A DNA stretch of 64,000 nt from Betaproteobacteria bacterium (GTDB lineage: Bacteria > Pseudomonadota > Gammaproteobacteria > Burkholderiales > Burkholderiaceae_C). A program made the position numbers and the translations under genes. The DNA is taken from positions 1 to 64,000 of the forward strand of contig JANXSZ010000032.1 of assembly GCA_025356445.1 (NCBI GenBank). The letters are read 5' to 3'. The notes beneath the pieces are model-generated. The model was given only the letters and a program-made list of their open reading frames with translations, ran no database searches and was not told the origin of the DNA. Each line of letters starts with the position of its first letter. The stretch's first letter is position 1. Shown here in pieces: positions 1 through 28,218 of the stretch.

Positions 1-72
1 CAACCTCAGCCACTGGTGCAACCTCAGCCACTGGTGCAACCTCAGCCACTGGTGCAACCTCAGCCACTGGCG
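1..72. repeat. Four tandem 18-bp units encoding a VAPVAE-type hexapeptide
   Basis: Units at 1-18, 19-36, 37-54 and 55-72. The first three are identical and the fourth differs by one base. They lie in frame in the C-terminal tail of the NfrB-like gene, so changes in copy number would keep the frame. The array may continue beyond the window. Confidence 0.95.
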
Positions 73-2275
73 CAACGGGCATTTCAGGTTGTTTGGCTTC
101 CTCTGCATTCGCTTTTGGCAGGTAGGGCTTGTAAGTATGCATGTCGCTGGGCAATTGCCATTGGCGTTGTTCCGCGACGACTTTTTCAATCACATCCCTG
201 CCAATAACGCCTTCTTCCACCAAGAAGTCACCGATACGGCCATGGCGCTGTGGACGGTATTTGTCCATGGCTTTTTCAAAGGCTTGACGCTGTATCAAAC
301 CACGCTCAATCAGTAAATCGCCCAACAACGGCGTTTGAGGTGCTGTGTCGCCATCCGAGCCGAACGCACCTTCCTCACCGCGCAGCAAACGCAAACCGGC
401 TGCGATTTCGCTTTCGCGGGCGATACATTGGACAGGTTCACGCCCCAGCACTACAGTCAATTGCTGCAAAGCCTCTGCGCTCAACGGACTGGCGACCCCC
501 ACCATGGGTTTGCCCTGCTCGCTGTCCCCCAGGGAAAGGGCACGCAGTCGCATGCATAAATCACCAGGCAGGCGAGCCGTGTACTGAGTCACAATGTCGG
601 CAGTCATCTTGGCGCGCGACAAATCAGACTGGAAGGCAATCACTTCCGCCAAAGTTTCATCGTCCAGCCACCCGTTGGACACCAGGACCCGCCCCAAAGG
701 CAGTTGCACACGAGCTTGCTCTGCCAAGGCTTTTTGAAGCGTGGCTTCGTCCACGGCTTGCCATGATTGCAGCAGATCGCCAATGCGCTGCTTTTGAACA
801 ATCAGGTTTTCAGCTGACGGGAAGTCGTGCATGGTTTTGTCCCACACCATGGCACTGCCCATGAACAAGTAACTCAAGTACAGCTTCCACGCCCGTGCAA
901 CGGCCATGAAATTCACAAAATTACTGACGATCATTCGGGGCACGGACAACAGTCCATGCCGCCAACCGTACAAAATGGTGACAAAGTAAATACGGTGCCC
1001 AATGCGGTTCAATAAGGCAAAACCGTTGAACAACAGCATATAGGGCCACCATCCGTCCATAGAGAACAAGGGTGGGTAATACACCGTCCACAGCCCGACA
1101 TAAGCAGCCGTCTGAAAAACCACAAACTGAATCAGCAACAAGTACGCCATCATGCTGATGAGCGCCGTCAGCACGCCTTTGCGGTCACGCAGTAGCAAAT
1201 ACTTCGCCACCAGCGGGCCTGTGAACTTGATCTGCTCCCAGCTTTGCAAGCCAATACCCAGTGTCCAACGGGCTTTTTGGCGGTAAGCGGTACGGAAAGT
1301 ATCGGGAAAATACTCACGCACACACAGCGGCATGTTGGCCAGTTTGGCTGTTACGGGCGTTGCACTTTTGGTAAACCAAGGCTCTTGCTTGACCAAAAAT
1401 TGCACGGGGAAGATCGCAAAAATGGAACGCATTCCCATGTGGGCCAAGCGGTTGCCAATGTCGTAATCTTCCGTCAAGCTCATGGTGTTGAACGGCTGGT
1501 TTTGGGTTTCCGCATTCAGCGCCAAAATGGCTTTGCGCGAAAAACAGGTGCCCACGCCTGCGGAGGGCACCACACCTGAAACACTTTCGCGCACCAGCAT
1601 GTCTTTGCCGTGTGACTCGGCAAATTCGTCCATGTAGGTACCTGCGACCAGTTCATACCATTTGCGCTCCAGCGACATGACTGGCAACTGGATCATGTCT
1701 TTGCGTGGCAACAGGTAGTTGTAGAACTTCAGTTCCAGCGGATGCAGCACGTCCTCGCTGTCGTGCAAAATCATGCCGGCAAACTCAATGCCAGCCTGTT
1801 CCTCGTGCTTGAAAATCGCTTGTACAACCCAATTCAAGCAATCCGCTTTACACGTTGGGCCTGGGTTAGGGACTTCCACCCGGCGCAACTGCTTGTAGCG
1901 GCGGCGCATGCGTTCGACTTCGGCAATGGTGGCGGCATCATTGACGTAGGTACCGACAAAAATCACATAATTTTTGTAGTCCATCACTGTCACCATATTT
2001 TCAATCATGGCGGCGATCACGTCGTATTCCATCCAGGCAGGCACCATCACCGCCAACGGCTGCTCGACACGTTCCTGAAGTTGCAGCACCGTCAGTGGAC
2101 GGTACGGTGTCTTGCGGTTTGTGAACCAGCGGTTGATACGACGTGACCAATACCACACGTCAATCACCAAGTCGTCCAAGCCCGATATGATAATGAGTAC
2201 AGCCATTACCGCAGCCAGCACTTCCAGATTGGCGTAGTAATCAGCCGCAAAGTACTGCCAAGAGCTCATCATCAT
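1..2275 (-). CDS. nfrB: NfrB-like family 2 glycosyltransferase with C-terminal MshEN-type modules (partial, runs off left edge)
   Basis: Reading the minus strand from the ATG at 2275 gives an open frame of at least 758 codons that leaves the window without a stop. Visible order: membrane segment near residues 15-38, glycosyltransferase 2 domain about 75-340 with an acidic HDSED motif near 170 and a QKARW (QxxRW-type) motif near 332, a membrane block about 355-475, then two copies of a paired LGxxL...G-type motif at about 495-545 and 650-703, which resemble MshEN/T2SSE N-terminal modules. The end of the visible part is an Ala/Pro/Val/Glu repeat. Known: in E. coli NfrB is a c-di-GMP-controlled glycosyltransferase that makes the phage N4 glycan receptor. 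A GAAGAGG ribosome site lies just upstream, and the bcsB-like gene ends 29 bases before the start, so the two are probably one operon. The substrate is unknown. Confidence 0.8.
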   Translation of the reverse strand, partial: MMMSSWQYFAADYYANLEVLAAVMAVLIIISGLDDLVIDVWYWSRRINRWFTNRKTPYRPLTVLQLQERVEQPLAVMVPAWMEYDVIAAMIENMVTVMDYKNYVIFVGTYVNDAATIAEVERMRRRYKQLRRVEVPNPGPTCKADCLNWVVQAIFKHEEQAGIEFAGMILHDSEDVLHPLELKFYNYLLPRKDMIQLPVMSLERKWYELVAGTYMDEFAESHGKDMLVRESVSGVVPSAGVGTCFSRKAILALNAETQNQPFNTMSLTEDYDIGNRLAHMGMRSIFAIFPVQFLVKQEPWFTKSATPVTAKLANMPLCVREYFPDTFRTAYRQKARWTLGIGLQSWEQIKFTGPLVAKYLLLRDRKGVLTALISMMAYLLLIQFVVFQTAAYVGLWTVYYPPLFSMDGWWPYMLLFNGFALLNRIGHRIYFVTILYGWRHGLLSVPRMIVSNFVNFMAVARAWKLYLSYLFMGSAMVWDKTMHDFPSAENLIVQKQRIGDLLQSWQAVDEATLQKALAEQARVQLPLGRVLVSNGWLDDETLAEVIAFQSDLSRAKMTADIVTQYTARLPGDLCMRLRALSLGDSEQGKPMVGVASPLSAEALQQLTVVLGREPVQCIARESEIAAGLRLLRGEEGAFGSDGDTAPQTPLLGDLLIERGLIQRQAFEKAMDKYRPQRHGRIGDFLVEEGVIGRDVIEKVVAEQRQWQLPSDMHTYKPYLPKANAEEAKQPEMPVAPVAEVAPVAEVAPVAEVAPVAEV

Positions 2276-2304: not shown

Positions 2305-4578
2305 TTACTTGCCGCTACGGCGGCGAAAGCGGCTGGCTGAGTACAACAGCGTCAAGAACAGAGCGATTGCAACCACGGGGATCGCCCACCAGAAATAGCG
2401 CTTGAACCAAGGCTCTCTCAGCTCTTCAAACAGGCGACGGTCCAGGCTGCTGCGTGAATCAAACTGCGCCACCAAGCCCTCTTGCCCAATGACCGCAAAG
2501 TTGCCGTTCATTAACTGAAACGGCTTGTCGTAACGACCTACATCCTCTGCCACTGTGTGGTAGACCACACCAGGCTTGCCATCGACATGCTCAACCGATG
2601 CGGCACCAATACGCGTCAAGCCCGAAATATCCAGCAGCTTGCGGTCGGCATCATCGGCAAGCACCAGGTGGCCTTTGTCAACCAGTACTTTGCGCTTCTC
2701 AGAGGGGAAAGCAATGTCCATCGCCAGAAATGGCGCAGTCGGTTTGGCTTGTGCCTCACCACCTACCGCGATAAATTTTGCTTTGGTGGGAGAGACATCT
2801 GTGGCAGCGCTGAGGCGTATCAAGCGTGACAAACTGTTTGGTGCATCGGCCAAGTAGGCGTTAGGTACAAGCACATCGCCCCCTTGCGATAGGCGAGAGG
2901 ACATACCCGTGAAATCATCATCGCCGGTTTCGCCACCCAGCACGACATGGCTGCTGGCCAAAACGGCAGCAGGGAAAGCCCCTGGGTTTTCACGGCAGCG
3001 GTCACTCAATAGCTGGCGAACAAAGGAGACGCGGATCACGTTGCGCGCACCCAGCGCGTAGCTGGGGATCACCGCCGTCAGGCGTTCACGCTTGCCCGTG
3101 GCTTCCATTTGCTTAGAGGCCAACAACACTTCATTCAAAAATACGGAAGCGACAGGCACAGTGCCCCAAGTGCTGGGCGCAGCAGATAAATCCATCACCA
3201 GATCACTGGGGCGACGCCCTTTCAAAATACCTGCGCCGATGTCGAACTTGGCAATCCACTCGCCATAGCCGATCACATCAAAACTCCCGGGGGCAGCCCC
3301 CAGCGCAGACAAGGATACGGCGTTCGCTTCGCCAGATGGCATATCAGCTGCCTTGACGACCATGGCGGTGGAAGCCGCCACTTTACGCCACTGGGTGTCG
3401 AACACCTCAGCCAGCTTGACACCGGCATCAGAAGCCACAACCACAGTCGCACCGCCTGACGACACAGACAAACGAATCTCACCGGCAGCGGTGGGGCTCG
3501 TGATAGAGTCCAGCCGTTGTGTGCGCCACTGCGTAAAGCTGGCGGCGGCATCTGGCGCTTCCGCTTTGATTTGGCTCTCCAATGCATTCAACCCTGCTTG
3601 AACGCTGCTCACCAAATTGCGATCAGTGACGACCACATCCACATGCGAAACACTGATTTGGTTTAAAGCAATCCACGCCCCGACTTCAGCTGTGCTGCTC
3701 AAAACACGTTTGCCACCTTGCGATAGCGCCGCAAAGGATGAGATACGTCGCAAGCCTTCAGGCACCGACAAACGGCTGGTGTCCACCTCTTGGCCGACAG
3801 CAGGCATCGCCACAATGGAGGGGCGCTTGCCGACACGCTCCAGCGTCAAGCCGATACGCCAAGCCGAGTCATACGCATCTGGTGCGAGTGATTTACCCGA
3901 CACCAAAATCACAGGTGCCTGCGGCATCGCTGTCCACGCGGTAGACAAATCACGAACAGCTGCGGCATCAAAGCGGTAGGTCAAGCGGCTGGTGGGTTCA
4001 ATACGCAGCAAATTCCCCATGGACCGCGTATCAGTGCAAATCGAGTCTGCGGCATTCAAGGCGATAACGGTATTCCAGGCAACGCCAAACCGAACAAACC
4101 CAGACGGTTGCGGGGTGCTCGGCACAGCAATCACCTGGCTGGCATCCCCACGCTCCAATGTAATGCCGCGCGCGGCAACAGCCGCATTGTCAAGCGACAG
4201 CAGCAAAGTCGTGCGTCCCTGATCGGCACGCATATAACTGGCATTGAACTGGATAACCGCGTCCAGCAAAGGCACATTCGCAGGCACAGGCAGGTAAATG
4301 TCACGCAAGGTTTGGGCCCCTCCCATCATGACCGCCGTATTCATACCAACGTCAGGCAGCGCCACGGAACGATTGACCCAGGTATTGGTAGCAAAATTTT
4401 CAAAAATTGTCGCTAGACCCACTGACCTGACCGGCTTGGTGGCTGATTCTGTCACTTCAGACTCAGATTGGGATTTGCTCTTTTTAGCAACAGCAGGCGG
4501 ACTGACTGTCGCCATCGACAACGCCAAAACCATGGTGCAAGGCAAGAGGGCTGATAGCGATTTTTTGCGGTTACTCAT
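2305..4578 (-). CDS. BcsB-like periplasmic polysaccharide synthase subunit
   Basis: 757 residues, close to the usual size of BcsB. An N-terminal signal peptide (about residues 1-31, basic start then a hydrophobic stretch ending PAVA) and a single C-terminal membrane segment (about 727-748) followed by a basic tail give the BcsB topology: a large periplasmic part anchored in the inner membrane. The body has beta-sandwich-like stretches such as an RTTLLLSLDN segment and a late C-x-ENPG motif reminiscent of BcsB. Known: BcsB sits on BcsA and guides the nascent glucan through the periplasm. Here the downstream partner is not BcsA but an NfrB-like glycosyltransferase 29 bases away. I infer that it serves that synthase. 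Family assignment rests on topology, size and scattered similarity, so it is less certain than for BcsE. Confidence 0.68.
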   Translation of the reverse strand: MSNRKKSLSALLPCTMVLALSMATVSPPAVAKKSKSQSESEVTESATKPVRSVGLATIFENFATNTWVNRSVALPDVGMNTAVMMGGAQTLRDIYLPVPANVPLLDAVIQFNASYMRADQGRTTLLLSLDNAAVAARGITLERGDASQVIAVPSTPQPSGFVRFGVAWNTVIALNAADSICTDTRSMGNLLRIEPTSRLTYRFDAAAVRDLSTAWTAMPQAPVILVSGKSLAPDAYDSAWRIGLTLERVGKRPSIVAMPAVGQEVDTSRLSVPEGLRRISSFAALSQGGKRVLSSTAEVGAWIALNQISVSHVDVVVTDRNLVSSVQAGLNALESQIKAEAPDAAASFTQWRTQRLDSITSPTAAGEIRLSVSSGGATVVVASDAGVKLAEVFDTQWRKVAASTAMVVKAADMPSGEANAVSLSALGAAPGSFDVIGYGEWIAKFDIGAGILKGRRPSDLVMDLSAAPSTWGTVPVASVFLNEVLLASKQMEATGKRERLTAVIPSYALGARNVIRVSFVRQLLSDRCRENPGAFPAAVLASSHVVLGGETGDDDFTGMSSRLSQGGDVLVPNAYLADAPNSLSRLIRLSAATDVSPTKAKFIAVGGEAQAKPTAPFLAMDIAFPSEKRKVLVDKGHLVLADDADRKLLDISGLTRIGAASVEHVDGKPGVVYHTVAEDVGRYDKPFQLMNGNFAVIGQEGLVAQFDSRSSLDRRLFEELREPWFKRYFWWAIPVVAIALFLTLLYSASRFRRRSGK

Positions 4579-8866: not shown

Positions 8867-9598
8867 CTACGTCCGCAACAGACTGACCAGCGACAGCACG
8901 CCCAGTAGCACAGGCTGATGCAGCATATAAAAGCTCAAGCTCCAGCGACCTAAAAAACTCAACCCGGCATGGCTTGGCGCATGAGGCATCCCTTTGGGCT
9001 GCTGGAGCAACCACGTGCCTGCCGCCATGCCCCACCACATCACCCCCAACCAGGGCAATATCGGCACATAATCTTCTGTGCGTGGCTTTTGGCTGATGAG
9101 TCCCAGCCAATGGAATGCCTTTTCATTGAGAAAACCAAGGTCAGTGCTTTCTCCGTGGGCGTAAGCAGCTATAAACTTCATAGCAATCGCCAGCGCCCCC
9201 AAACCCCACAGCCAGCGTCCCCAGCCAGCCGTCAAACGCACCACGACCAGCATCACGGCAATGCCATGCAGCACACCAAAGTAGATGTAGCTTTGGGGAA
9301 ACATCCACATTGAACCGGCGGTGACCAGCAGCGCACACAGTGCCACCTGCCCCCAACGCCGCCAAAACCGGGGCCAAGTCTGCCCCTGTTGCACAGCCAC
9401 AGCCTGTCCCAGCCCTGCACAAAAGAGAAACAAGCTCACGATGACTGTGCGTTGCCACGTCCACACAGCATCCGTTAAAAAGTTTTGCCGTGTCCAGCCA
9501 AAATAATTCAGGTCGTAGCAAAAGTGGAAAACAGCCATCCAGACGATGGCTATGCCACGTAGGGTATCCAGGGCATCAAAGCGTTGGTTTGCAGGCAT
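8867..9598 (-). CDS. DUF1624 (heparan-alpha-glucosaminide N-acetyltransferase-like) membrane protein
   Basis: 243 residues, about seven membrane segments. The start RFDALDTLRGIAIVWMAVFH, with the D-LRG motif and a following FHF-CYD segment, is typical of DUF1624/YeiB-related acyltransferases. The later FLGRWSLSFYMLHQP motif is also family-typical. Known relatives transfer acyl groups onto sugars across a membrane, but no bacterial DUF1624 substrate can be read from this sequence. It sits between two convergent or divergent housekeeping genes and not inside the polysaccharide block, so any link to it is speculative. It contains one of the 17-bp GCTAT-N7-ATAGC repeats at 9168-9184. Confidence 0.85.
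   Translation of the reverse strand: MPANQRFDALDTLRGIAIVWMAVFHFCYDLNYFGWTRQNFLTDAVWTWQRTVIVSLFLFCAGLGQAVAVQQGQTWPRFWRRWGQVALCALLVTAGSMWMFPQSYIYFGVLHGIAVMLVVVRLTAGWGRWLWGLGALAIAMKFIAAYAHGESTDLGFLNEKAFHWLGLISQKPRTEDYVPILPWLGVMWWGMAAGTWLLQQPKGMPHAPSHAGLSFLGRWSLSFYMLHQPVLLGVLSLVSLLRT
9168..9184. repeat. GCTAT-N7-ATAGC element inside the DUF1624 gene
   Basis: Arms 9168-9172 and 9180-9184 with loop AAACTTC. It is one of five exact copies in the window and lies in a membrane segment of the encoded protein. Confidence 0.7.
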
Positions 9599-17718: not shown

Positions 17719-19833
17719 GTGGTGACTCAATATTCAGGTCAAGTGATCGATCGAAAACATGCGGCGATCCGACTTTTTGTTTCCGATCTCCCTGAAACCA
17801 CCGACGCCATGCTCCCTGGCGGGGTGTACGCAATGATCGCGGAGACGCCACCAGCGCGTTTTCCTATCTTGGCGGCCAGCATGGCCGGTGCGGTGACCGG
17901 CAACATCCCCACCACGCTGTTGGTACCCTCTGCGCCCAAAGTATTTATCGACCGGCTGGCGCAAGTGGGGTTTCCAGGTGCCAATGCAGCCATTGAAACA
18001 GGGCATTTGCAGGTGTTTCAATTGCAGGATGATTTCAGTAAAAAGATGTTCCGCTTTGGTGCGGAAGCCTTTGTCAGCGAGCTTGATCACTTCCGCCTGC
18101 CTGCACAAAGCTACTTGGTGATTGACCAAGCAGACGAATTGCTCAGCCTGCACGACATCTCGCTCGCCCTGGAGCAGGCTGAAGCGCTGGGGCAATGGGC
18201 CAGAAAACTCAAAGTCACGATTTTGCTGGTGTTCACCCGTGTGGCAGCTGTAACCAGCTCGCTGGCCACATTGACGGGGTTGATGGACTATCTGGCTGGT
18301 ATTGTGCGACTCGGTGGACGCCAAGACGGCCTGGATTTAACGTTTGAGTACTGGCAGTCACCCGATGGCACCGTCGCTGCCAAGGTTTACCATCTTGCTA
18401 TTCTTGACGGCGGTCATTACCAAGTCAAAAAACAGCTCACATCGCCTGTGGAAGCAATGACAGCAGCTATAGTGCCCCCTGGTGTGACGCCAGCGGAAGC
18501 CGTTGAACCCGAAGAAGCGCCTGAACAATTGCGCTACCTGTACATTGACCCAACGCTGGCAGCCTTAAGCAAACAAATGGTGGGGCAGTGGCAAGCGTGT
18601 GATTCCATGGTGAGCGTGATCCGTGCGGCTTTTGGCGCTGTCGCCCCCACGGTGTTGCTGAGTTTTGAGCGCAACAGCGTGCTGCGCGACTTGGCCGAAG
18701 CCGTACATACTCTGCGCCTGTCGCTCGGACGAAGGGCACGCATTGTGGTGATTGAGCGCGAAGCCTCGCTGCGCTACCAAAATGAAATTTTGCTGTTGCG
18801 TCTGGGTACCAGTTTGGTCGTACACCGGGACGTACAAGAAAACCGCATTCCTTTGATGCTGGAATCGTTGCGTGGTCAGGTCTTTAACCGCGATATTGAA
18901 ATGCACTTTGATGCTGCACTTTCCAGCGTGGTGACTTCTGCCAAACGCGGTTACCTGCCCCCAGCCAGCTTTGTGCGTGAAACCACCAACGTGGTAGATC
19001 GCTCCGAATTGCTTAACCTGCCCTGCGCACTGGTGGTCGCCAAGCCTGACAGCACAAAAGCCTGCACCGAGTTGCTGACCAAAGTACGGGTCACCCGTGC
19101 CGGAGATTTGACCACCACAGATGGCAAGCTTTGTTACATCTTCTTCAGCGGGTGCCCTGAAAGCAGCCTCAAGCGTGCGCTGCAAGCGGTGCTGGGCGAA
19201 GGTGTAGAGCAGTTGTTTGCCGATATGCAGTTTGTGGTGGTGCGCGCCGATATTCGCAGCCGCTTGGTCAATCTGGGCCAAGAGGTGCAAGGCAAAACGT
19301 TTCCCGACACCATTGGGCAAGTCATTACACCCAAAGAAATTACCGTGCAGACGGTGGCAAACCTGCCTGCGCAGCGGCTTGTACCGCTTGCAGCCACAGT
19401 ACCTGCAGCAGCTACGCCTGCTGTTGCCGTGGCGATGGTTCAAATTGAAACGTTCATGCCTGTAGCCACCACCATCGTGATGGCTGAACCAGAAGTGATT
19501 CAAACCGTTGAAACCACCCTTCAAGTGGTTCCTGCACCATCTGTTGCCACACCTGAAGTTGTCGCAGAACCCATCTCTTTGCCAGTCGAAGCTGTAGCTG
19601 TAGAAATACCTGTAGCGGCTGCCGACAAGGTAGCCACTGTCCCCGTCGAGCCTACAGTCGCAGTGCCCAGTCCGATTTCGGAGCTGAATATACCTGCCGA
19701 ACCACTCAAACCGACCGAGATACCTCATGTTTTCGGACTGCTCGTCCCCGCTGCATCAGCCGAAAAAGTGGCCCGTCCTTTGCGCAGGGCCACACGCCGC
19801 AGTTCTGAATTTGAATCGGATCAAAATGGCTGA
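17719..19833 (+). CDS. bcsE: BcsE-like c-di-GMP-binding protein with GIL domain
   Basis: 704 residues from GTG 17719 (the next codon, 17722, is also GTG; an internal ATG near residue 30 is possible). The central part aligns by eye with E. coli BcsE: AVHTLRLSLGRRARIVV with EASLRYQNEILLL, then ESLRGQVFNR. The GIL domain is marked by RAGD (R460, D463), the RxGD motif that binds c-di-GMP, followed by LCYIFFSGC. Known: BcsE binds c-di-GMP in the cytosol and boosts cellulose synthase. Residues beyond about 550 form a Val/Ala/Pro/Glu-rich tail absent from E. coli BcsE. No bcsA, bcsQ or bcsZ is in the window. The start of the next gene overlaps this stop by eight bases. Confidence 0.88.
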   Translation: MVTQYSGQVIDRKHAAIRLFVSDLPETTDAMLPGGVYAMIAETPPARFPILAASMAGAVTGNIPTTLLVPSAPKVFIDRLAQVGFPGANAAIETGHLQVFQLQDDFSKKMFRFGAEAFVSELDHFRLPAQSYLVIDQADELLSLHDISLALEQAEALGQWARKLKVTILLVFTRVAAVTSSLATLTGLMDYLAGIVRLGGRQDGLDLTFEYWQSPDGTVAAKVYHLAILDGGHYQVKKQLTSPVEAMTAAIVPPGVTPAEAVEPEEAPEQLRYLYIDPTLAALSKQMVGQWQACDSMVSVIRAAFGAVAPTVLLSFERNSVLRDLAEAVHTLRLSLGRRARIVVIEREASLRYQNEILLLRLGTSLVVHRDVQENRIPLMLESLRGQVFNRDIEMHFDAALSSVVTSAKRGYLPPASFVRETTNVVDRSELLNLPCALVVAKPDSTKACTELLTKVRVTRAGDLTTTDGKLCYIFFSGCPESSLKRALQAVLGEGVEQLFADMQFVVVRADIRSRLVNLGQEVQGKTFPDTIGQVITPKEITVQTVANLPAQRLVPLAATVPAAATPAVAVAMVQIETFMPVATTIVMAEPEVIQTVETTLQVVPAPSVATPEVVAEPISLPVEAVAVEIPVAAADKVATVPVEPTVAVPSPISELNIPAEPLKPTEIPHVFGLLVPAASAEKVARPLRRATRRSSEFESDQNG

Positions 19834-21223
19834 TGAAAATGTCCCCCTCGGTGCAATGAAGGCAAAGCACGGCCCCCCTCTCGTGGTGGCCTTATTCGGG
19901 CTAAGTTCGCTGTGCCTTGCCAACTCGGCTTTTGCGGCAGGTGAACGCGTGCTGACGCCCGCCGCTGGCAATCTCTCTTTGGCCCCTAGCCGTGCCCTGA
20001 ATCTGACACCCAATCAGCAAAATCTGCTGTCAGGTTTGGCTGAGGTTGCGCAGCTGTATGCCGCCGTCAACCATGAAGCCGCAGGCACCAAAGGCTTGGC
20101 ACTGATTCAGCAAGGCGCCAAGCCCAATGATGATTTGCGACTCAAAATCGCCAACAGCCTTGCCTGGACTGGGCGGTTGAACGAAGCCTATGACCAGTAC
20201 GCTTTGCTCTTGAACGGCCCCTTCGACGCTGAAGCCCGCTTGGCGTTGGCCAATGCAGCCCGCTGGCAAGGTCGTGCGGATCTGGCCAAACCCATGTACA
20301 GCCAAGTCCTGGCTCTTGACCCCTCCAACACGGGTGCACGCGAGGGTCTGGAATATGGCGACCGCGATTTGCGTCCGAGCACCACCTTGTCATTTGGTCG
20401 CTCTAAAGATTCGCAGGACATGGAAACCCGTTACCTGACTGTGGCACACCGCTGGCGTGATGAAAGTGGCAGCAAGGTCTACGAGGTAGAAACCCGTGCA
20501 CTGCAAGACCGCCTTGATCCAGCCGGATTGAAACTGCAAGAGCGTGACATCACACTGCGGTTTCAAGCTTTGGATGTGGCCTACGAGCCCAAGGTTTACC
20601 TGAATGTGCAAGGCACGCCCAAAGCAGCTGCTTATGGCGGCATCCGCTTGAAAGTGGCGGGTGCAAGCGACGCTCCGACCCAGGTGTACCTTGACCGACT
20701 CAACTGGGGTATCACCTCGGTCAGCGCCAAGGCCTTGAACGCTGGCTTATCCGCCATCCATGCCGGTATTGACACCCGCCAAAGTTTCAGCGTGGGCGAG
20801 TTTTACGGCCGTGCCAGTGTTTACCGGGTATCCGACAGCAACACGTTGTTAACCACGTCGCTGAAATTCACCCCCTCATGGCGCCCTCTTGGGCCTGGCA
20901 TCAAAGCCTATGTCGCCACCGACACAAGGGATGTGCGCTTTAACACCGCAAACTACTGGTCGCCAACCCAAGGCTCCGGAACAGCCAGCGTAGGCTTGCT
21001 GGCCGAATGGGCACAAAAAGACTGGTTCTTTTACACCGCAGGCCAGCTCGGTACGCCGTTGTACGGTGAAGCCGGTAACAGCTGGAGCGCCAGTGCGGCA
21101 GCCAAACGCTGGCTGAACAAAGATTATGCTGTTGGTGTCAACCTGTGGGGTCTGTCAAGCCGACGCGACGGGGCAAACTACCGGGCCCGAGCGGTTTCCC
21201 TGAACCTGGAAAAGCTTTGGTAA
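19826..21223 (+). CDS. TPR-containing outer-membrane beta-barrel exporter (PgaA/BcsC-like)
   Basis: 465 residues from the ATG at 19826, which lies inside the bcsE stop region. A signal peptide ends near NSAFA (about residue 35). TPR-like helices follow (about 60-170, for example LAWTGRLNEAYDQYALLL and ALANAARWQGRADLAKPMY). The second half is rich in alternating beta strands with Tyr/Trp/Gly and ends ...SLNLEKLW, a terminal aromatic residue typical of outer-membrane barrels. Known analogues (PgaA, BcsC) combine periplasmic TPRs with an export pore. It is much shorter than PgaA or BcsC, so either the TPR part is reduced or another protein supplies it. It overlaps the next gene. Confidence 0.75.
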   Translation: MADENVPLGAMKAKHGPPLVVALFGLSSLCLANSAFAAGERVLTPAAGNLSLAPSRALNLTPNQQNLLSGLAEVAQLYAAVNHEAAGTKGLALIQQGAKPNDDLRLKIANSLAWTGRLNEAYDQYALLLNGPFDAEARLALANAARWQGRADLAKPMYSQVLALDPSNTGAREGLEYGDRDLRPSTTLSFGRSKDSQDMETRYLTVAHRWRDESGSKVYEVETRALQDRLDPAGLKLQERDITLRFQALDVAYEPKVYLNVQGTPKAAAYGGIRLKVAGASDAPTQVYLDRLNWGITSVSAKALNAGLSAIHAGIDTRQSFSVGEFYGRASVYRVSDSNTLLTTSLKFTPSWRPLGPGIKAYVATDTRDVRFNTANYWSPTQGSGTASVGLLAEWAQKDWFFYTAGQLGTPLYGEAGNSWSASAAAKRWLNKDYAVGVNLWGLSSRRDGANYRARAVSLNLEKLW

Positions 21224-22575
21224 AAGGCCGCATCATCCGCTATGTGTTGGGGTTGACCGTGGTGGGTTTGGCAATGGTGTCCGTTGCGTTCAACCATTTG
21301 CAGCTGCTGTCCTTGGGCCTGAACGCTTTTCAGGTTTTGGTAGAAAACTTTATCCTGAGCGCTATTTCGCTCTATTTGCTGTTTTTCTTAACCTTGCTGA
21401 TTCTTCGCTACGGCCTGTTGATGCTGTTCTCCTTCATGGAGCACCTGGAATACCAAGTCAAAAAACGCCAGCAAAAAGAACCTAACGCACACGATGACGC
21501 CTCGCTGCCGATGATCAGCTTGATCGTACCGGCGTACAACGAAGGCCCCGTCATTGAAGCGGCCATCCGCTCGTTGTTGAAACTCGATTACCCCAACTAC
21601 GAAGTGCTGATCGTTGATGACGGATCCACCGACGACACCTATGAAAAAGCACTGGCCGTCGCCCGCCAAAGCCCAGTCATCTCCGTTCGTGTCATTTCCA
21701 AACGCAACGGTGGCAAGGCCGATGCCCTGAACACCGGGATCACCAGCGCCAGGGGCGAGTTTGTGTTGAACATGGATGGTGACACCAAGCTGTCGCGCAA
21801 CACCCTGCGTGCCTGCATTCGGCATTTTGACGATCCCCGCATTGGTGCTGTGGCTGGCAATGTCAAGGTCTTGAACCGTGAAAACATCTGGACACGCGTG
21901 CAAGCCCTGGAGTATGTCGAAGGGTTGGCCATGGCACGTAAAGCCCAGAGCTTCATGCGCTCAGTCAATATCATCCCCGGCCCTCTGGGCATGTTCCGTA
22001 AATCAGTGCTGCAACAGGTAGGTGGTTACGACCATGACACCTTTGCCGAAGACTGCGACCTGACCCTCAAAATGCTGATGCGTGGCTGGCATATTGCCTA
22101 TGAACCTACCGCTATAGCCTGGGTAGAAACGCCCAGTGGTTTGCTGGACTTGCTGAAGCAGCGCTACCGTTGGACACGCGGCATCTTGCAAGCCATGCGC
22201 AAGCACAGCTCAGCGCTTTGGCAACCGCGTAAAGCGGGTATTAATTTCTACATCCTGTGGTACATGCTGTTTGAAGGCATCATTTGGCCTATTTCTACGG
22301 TGGCGGGCAGCGTATTCTTTGCCTATGTGGGGCTGCGTTACGGCATTGTGCTGTTCATTTTTTACTGGTGGCTGCAACTCACCATGCTTGATGTGATTGC
22401 GGCCACCTACTGCGTGGTGGTGGAAGAAGAAGACCCGGCGCTGATTGGTTATGCCGTTGCATTTCGTTTGTTCTACATCACGATTGTGGATGTATCAAAG
22501 GTATTTGCCACGCTGGAAGAATGGCGTGGAACAGCAATGACCTGGGGCAAATTGCAACGGGAAGGAAAGCTTTAA
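21217..22575 (+). CDS. Processive family 2 glycosyltransferase, PgaC-like synthase
   Basis: 452 residues from TTG 21217 (an ATG at 21145 would add 24 residues copied from the barrel gene in another frame; I prefer TTG, which gives a seven-base overlap). Two membrane segments precede the catalytic domain. All GT2 motifs are present: D134-D135 in VDDGSTDD, D187/D189 in MDGD, D279 in AEDCDLT, and QRYRW at 315-319. Membrane segments follow at the C-terminus. Order and size match inner-membrane synthases such as PgaC. Cellulose-type PilZ is absent, so c-di-GMP control would have to come from a partner, for instance BcsE. The sugar made is unknown; the deacetylase next to it suggests an N-acetylated sugar (inference). 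Confidence 0.9.
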   Translation: MVKGRIIRYVLGLTVVGLAMVSVAFNHLQLLSLGLNAFQVLVENFILSAISLYLLFFLTLLILRYGLLMLFSFMEHLEYQVKKRQQKEPNAHDDASLPMISLIVPAYNEGPVIEAAIRSLLKLDYPNYEVLIVDDGSTDDTYEKALAVARQSPVISVRVISKRNGGKADALNTGITSARGEFVLNMDGDTKLSRNTLRACIRHFDDPRIGAVAGNVKVLNRENIWTRVQALEYVEGLAMARKAQSFMRSVNIIPGPLGMFRKSVLQQVGGYDHDTFAEDCDLTLKMLMRGWHIAYEPTAIAWVETPSGLLDLLKQRYRWTRGILQAMRKHSSALWQPRKAGINFYILWYMLFEGIIWPISTVAGSVFFAYVGLRYGIVLFIFYWWLQLTMLDVIAATYCVVVEEEDPALIGYAVAFRLFYITIVDVSKVFATLEEWRGTAMTWGKLQREGKL

Positions 22576-22578
22576 AAC

Positions 22579-22836
22579 ATGGATTTAATTTCAATTCTGG
22601 CCACCGTCATTTTGCTGACGACCATCGGCACCTTGGTTGTGGCTGTCGCAGCTTATGTGGCCTTCAAGCTACGTGATAAGCGCAAGCCCAGCAAAAAAGA
22701 CCCTACGGCCATCGTCCACAATCCGTCTGAGCCGATATTCCTGACTCGGTACAAACCCCAAAAGCAAGGTAGCCAAAGCGGAAACACCGTGCCCGCTCCT
22801 CTCACGTCAACAGCGACAACCGCTGCAAACAACTAG
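22579..22836 (+). CDS. Small single-pass membrane protein, unknown
   Basis: 85 residues, starting three bases after the synthase stop. One N-terminal membrane segment (about 5-30), then a basic stretch (KLRDKRKPSKKDP) and a polar low-complexity tail rich in Gln, Ser and Thr. I do not recognise a family. Its position directly after a PgaC-like synthase is where PgaD would be in pga operons, but PgaD has two membrane segments and is longer. A function as accessory subunit of the synthase is plausible but unproven. Confidence 0.75.
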   Translation: MDLISILATVILLTTIGTLVVAVAAYVAFKLRDKRKPSKKDPTAIVHNPSEPIFLTRYKPQKQGSQSGNTVPAPLTSTATTAANN

Positions 22837-22902
22837 CTTTGAATCGTTTTATACACGCTGTGCGGCGAGCACGGTCAGTGTGACAAACGTGGCGCTGAAC
22901 AC

Positions 22903-24759
22903 ATGCAAACCGAAGACCCTGATTCCTTTGAAGTTCGTCCAGCCCACCGGCGTATCGGCACTTATCTGATCGGTATTTTCGTGATGGGTATTGCGGCCAG
23001 TGTGCTGGTCTTCACCATGGCCATGCAAGGCATGGGCTGGCCTCCCGCTATTTTGGGAGGTAAGCCCCAAGCCAGCACAGCCTTTTCAGAAAATACAGCC
23101 GTTTGGCTTTATGTATCGCCAAACAGCAAAACTTACTACACCAGCATTGGTGGCAATTACGACACGCTGCTGGCACCGTGGCGCAAGTACCTTGAAAACG
23201 TCAAGCCTAAAAACAGAGAGCTGACCGAGATCACAGACCTCCGCACACTCCAATATGGCGTGTTAGTCCTGCCCTCGGCAGCCGCTTTAAGCATGGCAGA
23301 GCGCCAAGAGATTCTGGCGTTCCGGGATCGTGGTGGTAGCGTTCTGGCAACCTGGGCAACGGGTACGCGCGGCCCAGCTGGTGAGTGGACAGGCTGGGAA
23401 TTTCTGGAAAAACTGGGTGCTGCCAAATTCACAGGTGAGATCCCCAAAGAAGCGGAAATTGGCCATTTGGTTTTGAGCGGTGAATCCCCCGTCTCGTTCA
23501 ACCAAAGTGCCGGGAAACGCATTTGGCTGGGGAACAATGCCGAGCGAGCGCTGCGCTTCAAAGGCACAGGTATTGGTGGCCGATTTTTGAACTGGAGCCG
23601 TACCCCCGACCCTGAACGCATTGACGAAGGCGCGGTGCTCTATGCTGAAGCAGGCCCACAAGCAGGACGCTCTGTGATTTTCGGTTTTGCCGAATCCAGC
23701 TGGGAACAGCAACCCACCGACATCCACAATCTGGTGACCGACAGCCTTTCCTGGCTCAAACACCGCCCGAACATAGTCAAAGCCGCATGGCCCAATGGGC
23801 GCAAAGCCGCCCATCTGCTGGAAATGGACACTGAGCAAAGTTTTCCGAACGCACTCCTTCTTGCCAAAATGATGCGAGATACAGACTACAAGGGTGCGTT
23901 CTACGTGCTGACCAGCAGCGGCCTGGAATACCCCGACGTGTTGAAAAGCTTGAACCGTGACTTTGAAGTGGCCTACCACGGTGATATCCATGTCAGTTTC
24001 AAAGGCCAAACACCTGAAGTTCAAGCACAGCGCATCAGCAACATGCAGTCCCAAATGCAAAGTGTGATTCCTGACACCGGTGCCATCACGGGCTTTCGCG
24101 CACCCAACGAAGGCTACGACAAAACCACCGAAATCGCCTTGCAAAAAGCAGGTCTGCGCCACCACCTGTCAGATACGCATGATGCCGACACCCGTCTGCC
24201 CTTCTTCGCCCCCATCGAAGGCACCGACATCGTGAGCGGCCTGATGGTGTTGCCCCGCACGCAGCGGGACGACATCAACCTGCTGACCAGCTTCAGAGAA
24301 GCGCCCAAACTGGCGCAGGCCATGGCCGATGATTTCAATTTGACGCGAGACACCGGGGCCCTGGGCGTGTTCAGCGTCCACAGCCAGAATTTGGGAGAAG
24401 GCCAGTTACTGAACACCGCAATGCCAGGCTACCTGAGCTACCTCAATTCACAAAAGAATGCTGTTTGGCTGGCAACACCCAGCGCCATCAATGCATGGTG
24501 GCGTGACCGTGAACGCTTTCGCTTGGTGGTGCGCATGGAAGGCCCCCGCACCGAATTTGACGTGGCGGTCGGTGGCAAGCTCCCTGTCAACGGCGCCAGC
24601 CTGATCCTCATGCTGCCCCGAAAAGGCGTGATACCCAATATCACCGGCGTCAAGCCGAACATGCCCATGCCCAAAATTACACTGCTGGATGAGTTCAGAG
24701 CCTCCGTGGTGTTTGACACGTTGGCACCGGGCAATTACTTTTACCAAGTCGGGTTTTAA
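22903..24759 (+). CDS. Membrane-anchored polysaccharide deacetylase (NodB-like) with N-terminal sensor-like domain
   Basis: 618 residues. One membrane anchor near residues 24-46, then a Rossmann/GATase-like region (about 65-290, with GVLVLPSAAALSMAERQEI and an FRDRGGSVL turn), then a NodB-type deacetylase domain (about 300-530). Visible catalytic motifs: MDTEQ (Asp of motif 1), YHGDIHVSF (HxxxH metal ligands) and GFRAPNEGYD (motif 3). The last 80 residues form a small beta domain. Known: such enzymes remove N-acetyl groups from polymers as in PNAG and Pel. The exact match to TFDD is lost, as in VDxE-type deacetylases. It closes the operon. Confidence 0.82.
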   Translation: MQTEDPDSFEVRPAHRRIGTYLIGIFVMGIAASVLVFTMAMQGMGWPPAILGGKPQASTAFSENTAVWLYVSPNSKTYYTSIGGNYDTLLAPWRKYLENVKPKNRELTEITDLRTLQYGVLVLPSAAALSMAERQEILAFRDRGGSVLATWATGTRGPAGEWTGWEFLEKLGAAKFTGEIPKEAEIGHLVLSGESPVSFNQSAGKRIWLGNNAERALRFKGTGIGGRFLNWSRTPDPERIDEGAVLYAEAGPQAGRSVIFGFAESSWEQQPTDIHNLVTDSLSWLKHRPNIVKAAWPNGRKAAHLLEMDTEQSFPNALLLAKMMRDTDYKGAFYVLTSSGLEYPDVLKSLNRDFEVAYHGDIHVSFKGQTPEVQAQRISNMQSQMQSVIPDTGAITGFRAPNEGYDKTTEIALQKAGLRHHLSDTHDADTRLPFFAPIEGTDIVSGLMVLPRTQRDDINLLTSFREAPKLAQAMADDFNLTRDTGALGVFSVHSQNLGEGQLLNTAMPGYLSYLNSQKNAVWLATPSAINAWWRDRERFRLVVRMEGPRTEFDVAVGGKLPVNGASLILMLPRKGVIPNITGVKPNMPMPKITLLDEFRASVVFDTLAPGNYFYQVGF

Positions 24760-24781
24760 GCCAGGGAAAGATCAGAGTTCT

Positions 24782-25897
24782 TCATGGTTTCCAGCGCTGC
24801 AACATGATGTTGACCAAAACACCTTGGTCATAGCCCAGCGGAAAAAAGGCCAGGCCCCGCAGATTTTGCTTTTCCAGCCAGTCGGCCTTGAGTTTGAGGC
24901 TGTACGAATCCTCAAACCAACCCACCGTACAGGTGCCTGCGGGTGACACCAAGGTGTAGTAAAGCGACTGACTCAGTGGCTCGACCTGGGCTCCGTAGCG
25001 CGCCACCCGGTCAGTGATACTGATATTCAGCGTGGGCACGCGTTGCGGGTCAACCGGCAGCAGCGTCGTGGTTTCTCCCCTGCCCTCGTGCTTGCCACGC
25101 GGCGTGCAGCTGGGCACATTCCATTCGTAGCCATACAGCGGAAAGCTCATCACCATGCGCCCACGCGCCAAGCCAAACTTGTCCGCCTGCGCCAGCATCT
25201 TCTCCCAGGTGGCAAAGTCCTCGCCAGCCAATGGCGAGACGGGGCCCGCATTGGGGCTGTCCAAAAAGTGCGCGTCATAACCTTGCAGTACCGCCTGATC
25301 AACACGGGCAAGCGTCGCTGCATCGTAGATGCCACCATAGTCACCAAAGGGCAAGAAGACGCTCAAACTGCGCGGCGGTGACTGCTGTTTGAGTTTTTGC
25401 GAGAGTGTGCCGACAAAACCCCGAAAACGCTTGACAGCCTCTGCACGCAGCGACCCCGTGCGAAGGTTGACTTCTACATCCAGGTGCAGGCCACTCACCC
25501 CGGGCTGTGACGCCAGGGCCAGTGCATCGCTCAGCAGCCGCTGGGTGGCCGCATTCGAGTCAAACACCGCATTGAACGTGGCAGGCTCCAGCAGCGTCAA
25601 GCCCAAATCCAGCGCGACGCCATGGTCTGCTGCTGCTTTGCTCAAGCCTGTCCATTGCGCAGGCCAGCCGTGCAACTCGTCCAGCGCTCCGTTACGCCCC
25701 ACTTCAATCTGAAAAAAAATCAAACGCTCAAAGTTGGCCAGCGGTAAGGCTTTCCAAGCGTCCTGCATCCACCACGCCACATAGCCCCACACCCGCTGCG
25801 GCCCTGCGTTGGCCTGCAAGGTGCAACCCCATACTGCAGCGACCAGCAAGCTTTTAAAAAGGGCGTGCCAAAGTCTGCGGCTGTCAAGAAAAGTCAT
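24782..25897 (-). CDS. Secreted GH18-like glycoside hydrolase family protein
   Basis: 371 residues with a signal peptide ending near QANA (about residue 30). The fold signs of a (beta/alpha)8 barrel are visible: RLIFFQIEV, GVALDLGLTLL, SGLHLDVEVN, AVLQGYDAHF and MSFPLYGYEW. The catalytic motif DxxDxDxE is reduced to SxxHxDVE: the two outer Asp are Ser and His, but the Asp-x-Glu core remains, so activity is possible. It runs convergently to the deacetylase gene, 22 bases away. Known: several exopolysaccharide systems pair a deacetylase with a hydrolase (PgaB, PelA). I infer a role in trimming the polymer, with moderate certainty. Confidence 0.72.
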   Translation of the reverse strand: MTFLDSRRLWHALFKSLLVAAVWGCTLQANAGPQRVWGYVAWWMQDAWKALPLANFERLIFFQIEVGRNGALDELHGWPAQWTGLSKAAADHGVALDLGLTLLEPATFNAVFDSNAATQRLLSDALALASQPGVSGLHLDVEVNLRTGSLRAEAVKRFRGFVGTLSQKLKQQSPPRSLSVFLPFGDYGGIYDAATLARVDQAVLQGYDAHFLDSPNAGPVSPLAGEDFATWEKMLAQADKFGLARGRMVMSFPLYGYEWNVPSCTPRGKHEGRGETTTLLPVDPQRVPTLNISITDRVARYGAQVEPLSQSLYYTLVSPAGTCTVGWFEDSYSLKLKADWLEKQNLRGLAFFPLGYDQGVLVNIMLQRWKP

Positions 25898-26008
25898 CCG
25901 TGAATGTTAACGGGCATTCCTGGTGGCTCTGTAGAATTCAAAATTACAAGCCCGCAGCGCCAGGGGCATGTGCAATCTCATTCCCGGTTCATCACATTCA
26001 CATTACCG

Positions 26009-26734
26009 ATGAAAACACCTGTCGCCCAACTTCTCCGCCCCTTTCTGGCTCCCTTGCTTTTTGCGCTGTCGGCTACAGGCTTTGCCTCCCATGCCGCAGC
26101 CCAAACCCTGGGCGCCCTGTACGACCCACAGCCCCCTGCCGACTCCGCCTATGTCCGCGTTATCGTGGTCAACGCCGAAGGCCCCATGGATGTGCAGCTG
26201 GACGGCAAACCCCGCCTGCAAGGCTTAACCGCCGCCACCGCCAGCGACTACATGGTGCTCAAAGCCGGGCAACATCAACTGAAGGTGCAAGGCAGTGGCA
26301 AATCGGGCAGCGCAGAAATCCCCCTCGAAATTATCGCAGGCCGTTCCGTGACCGTGGCCTTACCCAGCTTGGGCGCAGACAGCAAACCGCTGTTTTTTGC
26401 GGACAAAGCCAACACCAACAAACTCAAAGCCGTGCTGACGATCTACCACCTCGCCCCCAAAGCAGGCGCCATCGACACACTGACGGCAGATGGCAACACC
26501 AAAGTGTTCTCAGGCGTGGCTCCAGGCACATCGGCTTCTTTGGCGGTAAACCCCATCAGCATCGAACTGCAAGCCTCCAAAGCCGGTGAGAAAACAGCGC
26601 TCGCCAAAGCCCCATTGACCATGGCCCAAGGCCTCACCTACAGCCTGCTGGTATTGCCTGGCACCCCCGGCGACGGCGACAAGCTGGTCATGAAAAGCAG
26701 CGCCAACGCGCTTGAGCGCTACACCGGCAAGTAA
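26009..26734 (+). CDS. AlgF-like periplasmic O-acetylation protein
   Basis: 241 residues from the ATG at 26009. The signal peptide (about residues 1-31) ends in SHAAA. The rest is mostly beta strands: AYVRVIVVNAEGPMDVQLDG, then repeated segments resembling the two-domain AlgF fold. Known: AlgF binds AlgJ and AlgX during acetylation of alginate. The next gene is AlgX-like, which supports the call. There is no ribosome site of note and no AlgI-type MBOAT acyl donor next to it or anywhere in the window. The gene upstream is divergent, so these two form their own unit. Confidence 0.75.
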   Translation: MKTPVAQLLRPFLAPLLFALSATGFASHAAAQTLGALYDPQPPADSAYVRVIVVNAEGPMDVQLDGKPRLQGLTAATASDYMVLKAGQHQLKVQGSGKSGSAEIPLEIIAGRSVTVALPSLGADSKPLFFADKANTNKLKAVLTIYHLAPKAGAIDTLTADGNTKVFSGVAPGTSASLAVNPISIELQASKAGEKTALAKAPLTMAQGLTYSLLVLPGTPGDGDKLVMKSSANALERYTGK

Positions 26735-26775
26735 ACTTTTCACTGACACCCACTACGCCTACCACGGTCTCTTCC

Positions 26776-28218
26776 ATGACTTCATATTCATCAGAATTTA
26801 TAGCACGTCAAGCCCACCAGATAAGCGAGAAGCTGCCAAAACTGGCCCCATTGACACTGGCCCTCGTCACCAGCTTCGCCGCCCTGCCCACCTTGGCACA
26901 AGATGCCCCCGGTATCGTTGGCAAAGACGGTTGGCTCTACTACAAGTACGAGTTGACCAGCGGGCAAGACCCGGCAGCCATTGGCACCACCGTCGATCTG
27001 GTGCGCCGCATCAACAAGGTGTTCCAGAAAAATGGCATCGCCGTCATCGTCGCCATGGTGCCGCTGAAAGTGCGCGTCCATCCCGAGAACCTGCCCGCCA
27101 GTGTCAAACTCACCAGCGCGTTAGACAGCCAGTACAGCAGCATTTTGAAAAGCCTGCGCGACGGCGGCGTGATGGCCGCTGACCTGAACACCGCGTTCGT
27201 CAAAAGCTCCAACCGCATCAGCCCCATGCCGCTGTTCTTCAAGCAAGACACGCACTGGTCAGCCTCTGGTGCCTTGCTGGCCGCAGAAACCATCCGCGAT
27301 GCTATCACCGCCGATCCGGCCCTCAAAGCGGTGCTGGACACCACGCCAGAAGCCCCCTACAAATTAACCTGGGCAACGCAAGAGCCACTGAAAAAAGGCG
27401 ATTTGGTACCCCAGCTGCCCAAAGGCTCACCTGCATTCGAACCCGAAGCGGTGAAATACTTCGAGGTTGACAAACTCGCCGCAGGCGCTGGCAGCGCCGC
27501 CGCCAATCTGATGGGGGCATCCGCCGTCAACATTACGCTCTTGGGCAGCAGCTATACCCACGAGTGGACCAAGTTCCCCGGTGCCGTCAGCTTCGCCCTG
27601 CAGCGCAATATTTTGAGTATCTCCGTCGATGCGTCCCAAGGTCAATGGGTGGGTCTGCACACTTATTTGCGCGACGACTCTTTCCAAACCAACAAGCCCA
27701 AGCTGCTGATCTGGGAAATGCCCGAGCGCGACATGGCCGCCCCACCCCAGTACAAATGGCGCGATGCCCGTTACTCGATGGACAACACCGAGTGGTTGCT
27801 GCAAGCATCCGCCCTGGTGCAGCAAACATGCGCGCCCGCAGGCATCCAGGCCAAGGTTGAAGCAGCCAGTCTGGGGGCGACCTCTGGCTCCCCCAACGTG
27901 ATCGATGCCAAACCCAGCACAGCACAAGACTTTGTTGAGATCAACTTTGACAAACCCGTCGAACGCCTGAGTTACCTCAGTGCCAAGATGCAGGTCGCAG
28001 GCTCCAAAACCATCACCATCGAAGCCTCAGGTAACGGAGCAACCGCCCGTAAATTCACCCTACCCGTGGCCGGTGACGACGCAGAGCACAACCTGCGTAC
28101 AGCCCTGCTGTCCAAAGGCAAAGGCTTCACCAAAATTCGCCTTTTTCCGGGCACTGCTACCAGCTTCAGCCTGAAGGATGTGCAACTCTGCGCTCAACCT
28201 GAAGATCTGTTGCGTTAA
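26776..28218 (+). CDS. AlgX/AlgJ-like SGNH O-acetyltransferase with C-terminal carbohydrate-binding-like domain
   Basis: 480 residues with a rather late hydrophobic signal (about 24-42, ending PTLAQ). N-terminal SGNH-like domain (about 45-340): GWLYYKYE start motif, KQDTHWSASG giving catalytic D158 and H160, and LGSSYTHEW giving the nucleophile S259. The C-terminal 130 residues look like a beta-sandwich carbohydrate-binding domain, as in AlgX, and AlgJ lacks that part. Known: AlgX acetylates alginate in the periplasm with acetyl relayed from AlgI. It lies 41 bases after the AlgF-like gene. The substrate here is probably the polymer of the neighbouring locus (inference). Confidence 0.82.
   Translation: MTSYSSEFIARQAHQISEKLPKLAPLTLALVTSFAALPTLAQDAPGIVGKDGWLYYKYELTSGQDPAAIGTTVDLVRRINKVFQKNGIAVIVAMVPLKVRVHPENLPASVKLTSALDSQYSSILKSLRDGGVMAADLNTAFVKSSNRISPMPLFFKQDTHWSASGALLAAETIRDAITADPALKAVLDTTPEAPYKLTWATQEPLKKGDLVPQLPKGSPAFEPEAVKYFEVDKLAAGAGSAAANLMGASAVNITLLGSSYTHEWTKFPGAVSFALQRNILSISVDASQGQWVGLHTYLRDDSFQTNKPKLLIWEMPERDMAAPPQYKWRDARYSMDNTEWLLQASALVQQTCAPAGIQAKVEAASLGATSGSPNVIDAKPSTAQDFVEINFDKPVERLSYLSAKMQVAGSKTITIEASGNGATARKFTLPVAGDDAEHNLRTALLSKGKGFTKIRLFPGTATSFSLKDVQLCAQPEDLLR

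Follow-up and report, generated by a model that had tools for sequence, protein, structure and literature searches.

What does a bacterium make with a locus that brings together genes resembling those for cellulose, poly-N-acetylglucosamine (PNAG) and alginate, and how many of these genes belong to one system? The question is raised by a 64,000-nucleotide stretch of a Betaproteobacteria bacterium genome (contig JANXSZ010000032.1, positions 1 to 64,000; hereafter the window), in which a gene for a BcsE-type protein heads a run of five genes on the plus strand (17719-24759). An initial annotation had assigned these five, several genes downstream and a gene pair some 13 kb away to a single exopolysaccharide system controlled by cyclic di-GMP (c-di-GMP). 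We refer to the five as the core; they encode a putative family 2 glycosyltransferase (GT2), a tetratricopeptide repeat (TPR) porin and a carbohydrate esterase family 4 (CE4) deacetylase in addition to BcsE and a small protein:

17719 to 19833, plus strand: BcsE-type protein, 704 amino acids (aa) (Pfam CBP_BcsE, 1.3e-71)
19826 to 21223, plus strand: TPR/16-strand beta-barrel exporter, 465 aa (AlphaFold2 model, PDB folds and a weak NCBIfam PgaA match)
21217 to 22575, plus strand: PgaC-like membrane GT2 synthase, 452 aa (NCBIfam PgaC_IcaA the best match)
22579 to 22836, plus strand: small protein, 85 aa, with one N-terminal transmembrane segment and a basic tail (kept in four relatives)
22903 to 24759, plus strand: membrane-anchored CE4 (NodB) deacetylase, 618 aa (Pfam Polysacc_deac_1)

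A conserved and rare five-gene unit

The core genes are separated by -8, -7, +3 and +66 nt, in agreement with the tight packing initially described, and all of the genes listed in the initial annotation were present, with Pfam matches for the BcsE, GT2, CE4, GH18 (glycoside hydrolase family 18), AlgF and AlgX proteins. The locus is flanked by glnD upstream and an aldehyde dehydrogenase gene downstream. An identical core order is found in five genomes from two families: the window genome (G000), a Comamonadaceae metagenome-assembled genome (MAG; G083) and three Gallionella genomes (G367, which is Gallionella sp. STB_51, G927 and G991). All five genes are conserved in the four relatives, at 27-74% identity to the window copies (59-74% for the GT2 and 40-71% for the small protein, which occupies the equivalent position), and they overlap or are separated by gaps of at most 66 nt; for bcsE and the exporter gene, which overlap or lie no more than 26 nt apart, this holds more tightly still in all five genomes.

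Elsewhere these genes are scarce. The deacetylase occurs in G083 and the window genome out of 121 from the family, in G367 and the window genome out of 399 from the order, in the window genome alone out of 398 from the phylum, and in 3 of 150 Gallionellaceae genomes. BcsE itself is rare in the order (10 of 300 genomes), and the four other BcsE proteins found in the family adjoin bcsA or bcsB. No ortholog of the GT2 was found, at a threshold of E < 1e-70, in the genomes lacking the system among 300 sampled from the order, and an additional scan of 84,980 species genomes turned up a Burkholderiaceae MAG with deacetylase, bcsE and exporter genes at a contig end. Given an order shared by five genomes and this rarity elsewhere, the five genes are a genuine, rare and conserved unit, far beyond chance, and the proposal that a BcsE sensor and a PgaC-like synthase belong to one such unit holds.

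Rfam searches of the window found no riboswitch, for c-di-GMP or otherwise, upstream of the locus, and promoter and terminator scans gave no enrichment over shuffled sequences. A partly similar cluster occurs in a Bryobacterales MAG (L045 8183-11623), in which a TPR/BcsC-like gene, a GT2 gene (49% identity) and a CE4-like gene without catalytic motifs are found together, with no BcsE.

Predicted synthesis, modification and export

The GT2 carries all of the expected synthase motifs (DDG, DGD, AED and QRYRW). Among NCBIfam families it scores best with PgaC_IcaA, at 230 bits versus 81 bits for CelA, and it shares 34% identity with E. coli PgaC (164 bits), as opposed to 24% with BcsA (63.5 bits) over the GT domain only. 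For the exporter, whose start is not at 19727 but at 19826 or 19856, the AlphaFold2 model (predicted local distance difference test score, pLDDT, 76) has seven helices followed by 16 strands, which is the TPR-plus-barrel architecture of PgaA. The nearest PDB folds are BcsC, PgaA (4y25, template modelling score, TM(target), 0.76) and PelB, with BcsC and PelB equally near.

The deacetylase consists of a transmembrane anchor, an N-terminal region of 290 residues without an assigned fold and the CE4 domain, which exceeds the Pfam Polysacc_deac_1 cut-off (34.9 vs 23.1). Its putative metal-binding and catalytic motifs lie at residues 308-311 (MDTE), 359/363 (HxxxH), 399 (RxP) and 493 (SxH), and the last three are kept in the deacetylases of all five core loci. 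The CE4 pattern itself reads TFDDG, HxxxH, RxP and LxH. Residues 295-540 match polysaccharide deacetylase folds with Z about 19, albeit on a low-confidence model (pLDDT 58.6), and for that reason we used only this CE4 core match. On the opposite strand, a candidate partner for this enzyme follows:

24782 to 25897, minus strand: GH18-family protein (Pfam Glyco_hydro_18, 5.6e-14)

It scores 53 bits against a cut-off of 29.6, retains the catalytic DxE, and is convergent with the adjoining deacetylase gene in the window, G367 and G927.

The BcsE-type protein comprises an N-terminal domain, a degenerate REC-GGDEF (GIL) part and a long, variable C-terminal tail. Its membership of Pfam CBP_BcsE is clear (242 bits vs a cut-off of 25), although it misses the NCBIfam cellulose_bcsE equivalog cut-off (173 vs 245 bits); it shares 30% identity with its E. 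coli counterpart across 204 aa and matches PDB BcsE over the REC-GGDEF part (1e-18). Residues 460-463 (RAGD) align with R415-TGD of E. coli BcsE and thus supply the RxxD motif of an I-site; in E. coli, R415 and D418 bind c-di-GMP (PMC7439463). The RxGD is kept in four of the five core BcsE proteins. In E. coli, the small protein BcsF, encoded in the same operon, brings BcsE to the membrane (PMC7439463). The small protein of our core, which reads as a single transmembrane segment, has no PgaD match and no significant match in Pfam, PHROG, PDB or plasmid searches; with a conserved stretch, [EN]PIFL.R[YH], it is, as judged by sequence comparison, a new conserved family.

The pairing of BcsE with a non-cellulose synthase, an exporter and a deacetylase points to a signal-controlled amino-sugar slime, and the product is probably a c-di-GMP-controlled amino-sugar polymer that has not been described. 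We lean, by a small measure, toward reading the core as a synthase-dependent exopolysaccharide secretion operon with a PNAG (Pga)-like layout and BcsE as its c-di-GMP sensor. In such an operon, the GT2 would polymerise and translocate a beta-linked amino-sugar chain, the membrane-anchored CE4 enzyme would strip some N-acetyl groups from it in the periplasm, with the GH18 protein trimming it, so that the two would jointly do the work of PgaB; the TPR/barrel protein, going by its predicted fold, would then pass the chain through the outer membrane. By analogy with E. coli BcsE and BcsF and from the gene order, BcsE would bind c-di-GMP at the RxGD and, held at the membrane by the small protein, would switch on or assemble the GT2.

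Several observations weigh against this reading. The GT2 falls below the PgaC_IcaA cut-off (230 vs 422 bits), and the deacetylase has MDTE as motif 1 in place of the usual DD (TFDDG). Identifying the deacetylase or GH18 as PgaB was rejected, as neither BLAST nor phmmer detected any similarity to it. The small protein is of the size class and topology of BcsF, but its identification as BcsF found no support (hhalign probability 0.5%, no Pfam BcsF match). BcsE of G083 lacks the part that bears the RxGD, and c-di-GMP sensing by BcsE is accordingly not universal among these loci. Finally, bcsQABZC lie just downstream of the core in G367, and the core of G083 is followed, up to the end of its contig, by genes of 167 aa and 288 aa and by bcsQ; with bcs genes adjoining the core in both, BcsE may serve a cellulose synthase.

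The first of these points, together with the presence of acetylxylan esterases among CE4 enzymes (e.g. 7fbw, one of the deacetylase fold matches) and the addition of O-acetyl groups by AlgFX, would suit a GT2 that makes a glucan or mixed polymer from which the CE4 enzyme removes O-acetyl rather than N-acetyl groups. We consider this improbable, as no other family comes close to PgaC_IcaA for the GT2, and the scores given above favour E. coli PgaC over BcsA.

Paralogs of the deacetylase also occur in the relatives (L028 2-3954, L029 2-2041, L039 18582-20000 continuing in L040 1-759, and L069 5558-7303). The paralog in G991 adjoins bcsC/bcsZ. Those that adjoin AlgF in G367 and G083 (DAC2) lack HxxxH; we dropped them as candidate active deacetylases, and they are probably inactive.

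BcsE, cellulose genes and the Nfr operon

A bcsA gene next door in relatives, which the initial annotation had named as a refuting finding, was approached in two of the five loci (G083 and G367), but there is no bcs gene near the core in the window or in G927. Should the core BcsE serve a cellulose synthase (BcsQ/BcsA) encoded elsewhere, the GT2 unit would be merely co-transcribed with it and not under its control, and two polymers would be co-expressed. This would agree with BcsQ and BcsA being the known partners of BcsE (PMC7439463, PMC8461298), with the window genome's bcsQABC on contig C38, which have no bcsE of their own, with the single BcsE of G367 adjoining a bcs operon, and with bcsQ following the core in G083. 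It fits less well with the lack of bcs genes around two of the cores, with the close joining of bcsE to the exporter gene in every genome, and with a GIL domain that is apparently fused to a non-cellulose synthase, NfrB, in the window genome itself. We think it rather unlikely that this BcsE serves the cellulose synthase and leaves the GT2 uncontrolled. G083 also encodes, before bcsB (L080 3127-4728), a BcsA-like protein that is about 20% identical to BcsA and cut by the contig end; it is perhaps a degenerate synthase.

The apparent fusion came from the gene pair at the start of the window:

2 to 2275, minus strand: NfrB (GT2-MshEN), outside the system (NCBIfam PRK15489)
2305 to 4578, minus strand: putative BcsB-like periplasmic protein of the Nfr operon, outside the system (from its position beside NfrB)

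The pair lies 13.1 kb upstream of bcsE, as first noted. The NfrB assignment was strongly confirmed, by a PRK15489 score of 1075 bits and by 39% identity with its E. coli namesake, but the BcsB-like label of its neighbour is weak: this protein matches no Pfam or NCBIfam family and nothing meaningful in the PDB, and the label comes from its place beside NfrB and from a 94-aa stretch with 31% identity to the gene that precedes nfrB in another genome. The start of the window's contig (C61) recurs at the end of another contig, C18, and the NfrB frame runs off C61, through PVAEVA repeats, to a RAGD-bearing, BcsE-like GIL domain on C18 (L026 9304-10606). NfrB thus appears to carry, as a fusion, a second GIL domain of BcsE type, with the adjacency of C18 and C61 taken from the end sequence that they share. 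We found no paper describing such a fusion; the fusion independently favours the idea that BcsE works with a GT2 other than a cellulose synthase.

Beyond the GIL domain, C18 continues with NfrA, an AlgX-like gene and a YbcH-like gene, and the Nfr genes are therefore a separate operon. A single Nfr/BcsE/Alg super-system spanning 2-28218 could be argued from the fact that both loci of this one genome hold BcsE-type domains and AlgX-like genes. However, the Nfr AlgX-like protein forms a separate clade (100/100), and Nfr loci occur in two genomes without the deacetylase (G018 and G020), so that the inclusion of the BcsB/NfrB-like pair in the system does not hold and one super-system is very improbable.

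O-acetylation genes and relation to described systems

Downstream of the GH18 gene, the window contains two putative O-acetylation genes:

25904 to 26734, plus strand: AlgF-like accessory O-acetylation protein (Pfam AlgF, 9e-18)
26776 to 28218, plus strand: AlgX-like SGNH acetyltransferase (Pfam ALGX, 7.6e-55)

Both exceed their Pfam cut-offs (64.8 vs 34.4 for AlgF, whose true start is probably near 26010, and 187 vs 26.5 for AlgX). AlgI (MBOAT) and AlgJ of the window genome are found on contig C62, and all four AlgIJFX components are thus encoded, split over two places. The SGNH catalytic motifs are present (DTHW in AlgX and AlgJ, and GSSY/GTSY). The window AlgF is 43-53% identical to those of G367 and G083. 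In our trees, the window AlgX groups with the AlgX proteins of the same two genomes (support 98/99) and the C62 AlgJ with their AlgJ proteins (96/95), in clades apart from the Nfr-linked and Bcs-linked copies; the AlgI tree, with long branches and little support, was left unused. No AlgX of the window clade is found in G927 or G991. With AlgX and AlgJ clades common to three core genomes and this AlgX missing from the other two, the AlgIJFX module is linked to the core by descent, yet accessory. The AlgX gene of G083 (L029 2917-3975) has an in-frame TGA and may be truncated or mis-assembled.

An AlgIJFX-type relay may O-acetylate the core product in some hosts, the window genome included. As to the initial claim for the AlgF/AlgX pair, the lineage does accompany the core in three of five genomes, but it may act, as may GH18, either on the core polymer or on cellulose. 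In G367, about 26 kb hold AlgI-AlgJ, AlgX-AlgF-DAC2, BcsE-exporter-GT2-small-deacetylase and GH18-BcsQ-TPR-BcsC-BcsZ-BcsB-BcsA, and one contig of G083 carries AlgF/X/J/I, a deacetylase paralog, GH18, a bcsQ-like gene and bcsB. Because AlgIJFX or GH18 adjoin cellulose genes in these two genomes, their target could be cellulose, with AlgFX (and AlgIJ on C62) and GH18 acting outside the GT2 system in the manner of WssFGHI, which are needed for cellulose acetylation in P. fluorescens (PMC10641220). We place this only a little below an even chance: in G083, GH18-AlgI-AlgJ share a strand with bcsB and the bcsQ-like gene, in G367 GH18 comes after the bcsQ-like gene on the bcs strand, and the cores of G927 and G991 manage without an AlgX of this clade. 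Pointing the other way, the window AlgFX adjoin the deacetylase with no bcs gene there, three genomes have GH18 beside the deacetylase (G927 with no bcs gene nearby), and the AlgX-AlgF-DAC2 unit of G367 is divergent from bcsE.

Returning to the core as a Pga-like operon, it resembles E. coli pgaABCD in its PgaC-like GT2, PgaA-fold exporter, CE4 enzyme, glycoside hydrolase and small membrane protein. PgaB, however, is a CE4-GH fusion, whereas here the two are separate genes with no detectable relation to it; the small protein has one transmembrane segment and no similarity to PgaD; and BcsE is added, whereas in E. coli c-di-GMP is sensed by PgaC/PgaD themselves (PMC8461298). With bcsRQABZC-bcsEFG the locus shares a BcsE (here heading the operon), a small transmembrane protein, a BcsC-like exporter and, in two relatives, adjoining bcs genes. 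It differs in that the synthase is not BcsA, the operon has no BcsB, a deacetylase takes the place of BcsG and the small protein shows no similarity to BcsF. In sequence terms, then, the locus is neither pga (the GT2 cut-off, PgaB and PgaD all fail) nor bcs (no BcsA or BcsB in the operon), and its probable mode of action is that of pga under a bcs sensor. The wss and alginate systems share with it AlgF and AlgX, as well as AlgI and AlgJ on C62, with the DTHW/GxS motifs kept, but here these genes are in two places, beside the deacetylase and GH18 rather than bcs genes, and accompany three of five cores. The NfrA/NfrB system, 13 kb away and also with a BcsE-like GIL domain, has its own GT2-MshEN synthase, NfrA and AlgX-like protein and no deacetylase. 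Finally, the sfz/sfb stalk cluster of iron oxidisers, including some Gallionella, comprises candidate c-di-GMP-linked exopolysaccharide genes, but those described (BcsB-like, EpsE-GT2 and others) differ from ours, and the text searched mentions neither a deacetylase nor BcsE (PMC8250860, PMC10734462).

Our literature searches (BcsE with GIL/deacetylase or with NfrB, and AlgF/AlgX in Comamonadaceae) found no description of this gene set, in keeping with the initial remark that no such system is known. A 2020 survey counted five synthase-dependent exopolysaccharides: cellulose, acetylated cellulose, PNAG, alginate and Pel (PMC7112194). A locus that joins a cellulose sensor to a PNAG-type core would widen that list, and it makes the role of BcsE without its cellulose synthase directly testable. 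More tentatively, and with the odds against us, we propose a sixth lineage in Gallionella and relatives, in which a PgaC-like synthase and a detachable BcsE c-di-GMP module, docked by the new family of one-transmembrane peptides, would make a partly deacetylated, O-acetylated amino-sugar polymer. BcsE would then be a sensor that can be plugged into GT2 synthases in general, an idea suggested by the apparent NfrB-GIL fusion. The genes for the organic matrix of iron mats are still unsettled (PMC13386937 states this for sheaths), and we speculate that the polymer, if the system is active in Gallionella, could belong to that matrix.

Upstream of the locus, the window also encodes an HGSNAT-type glucosaminide N-acetyltransferase-like membrane protein (8867-9598, minus strand; 231 bits), which is possibly unrelated.

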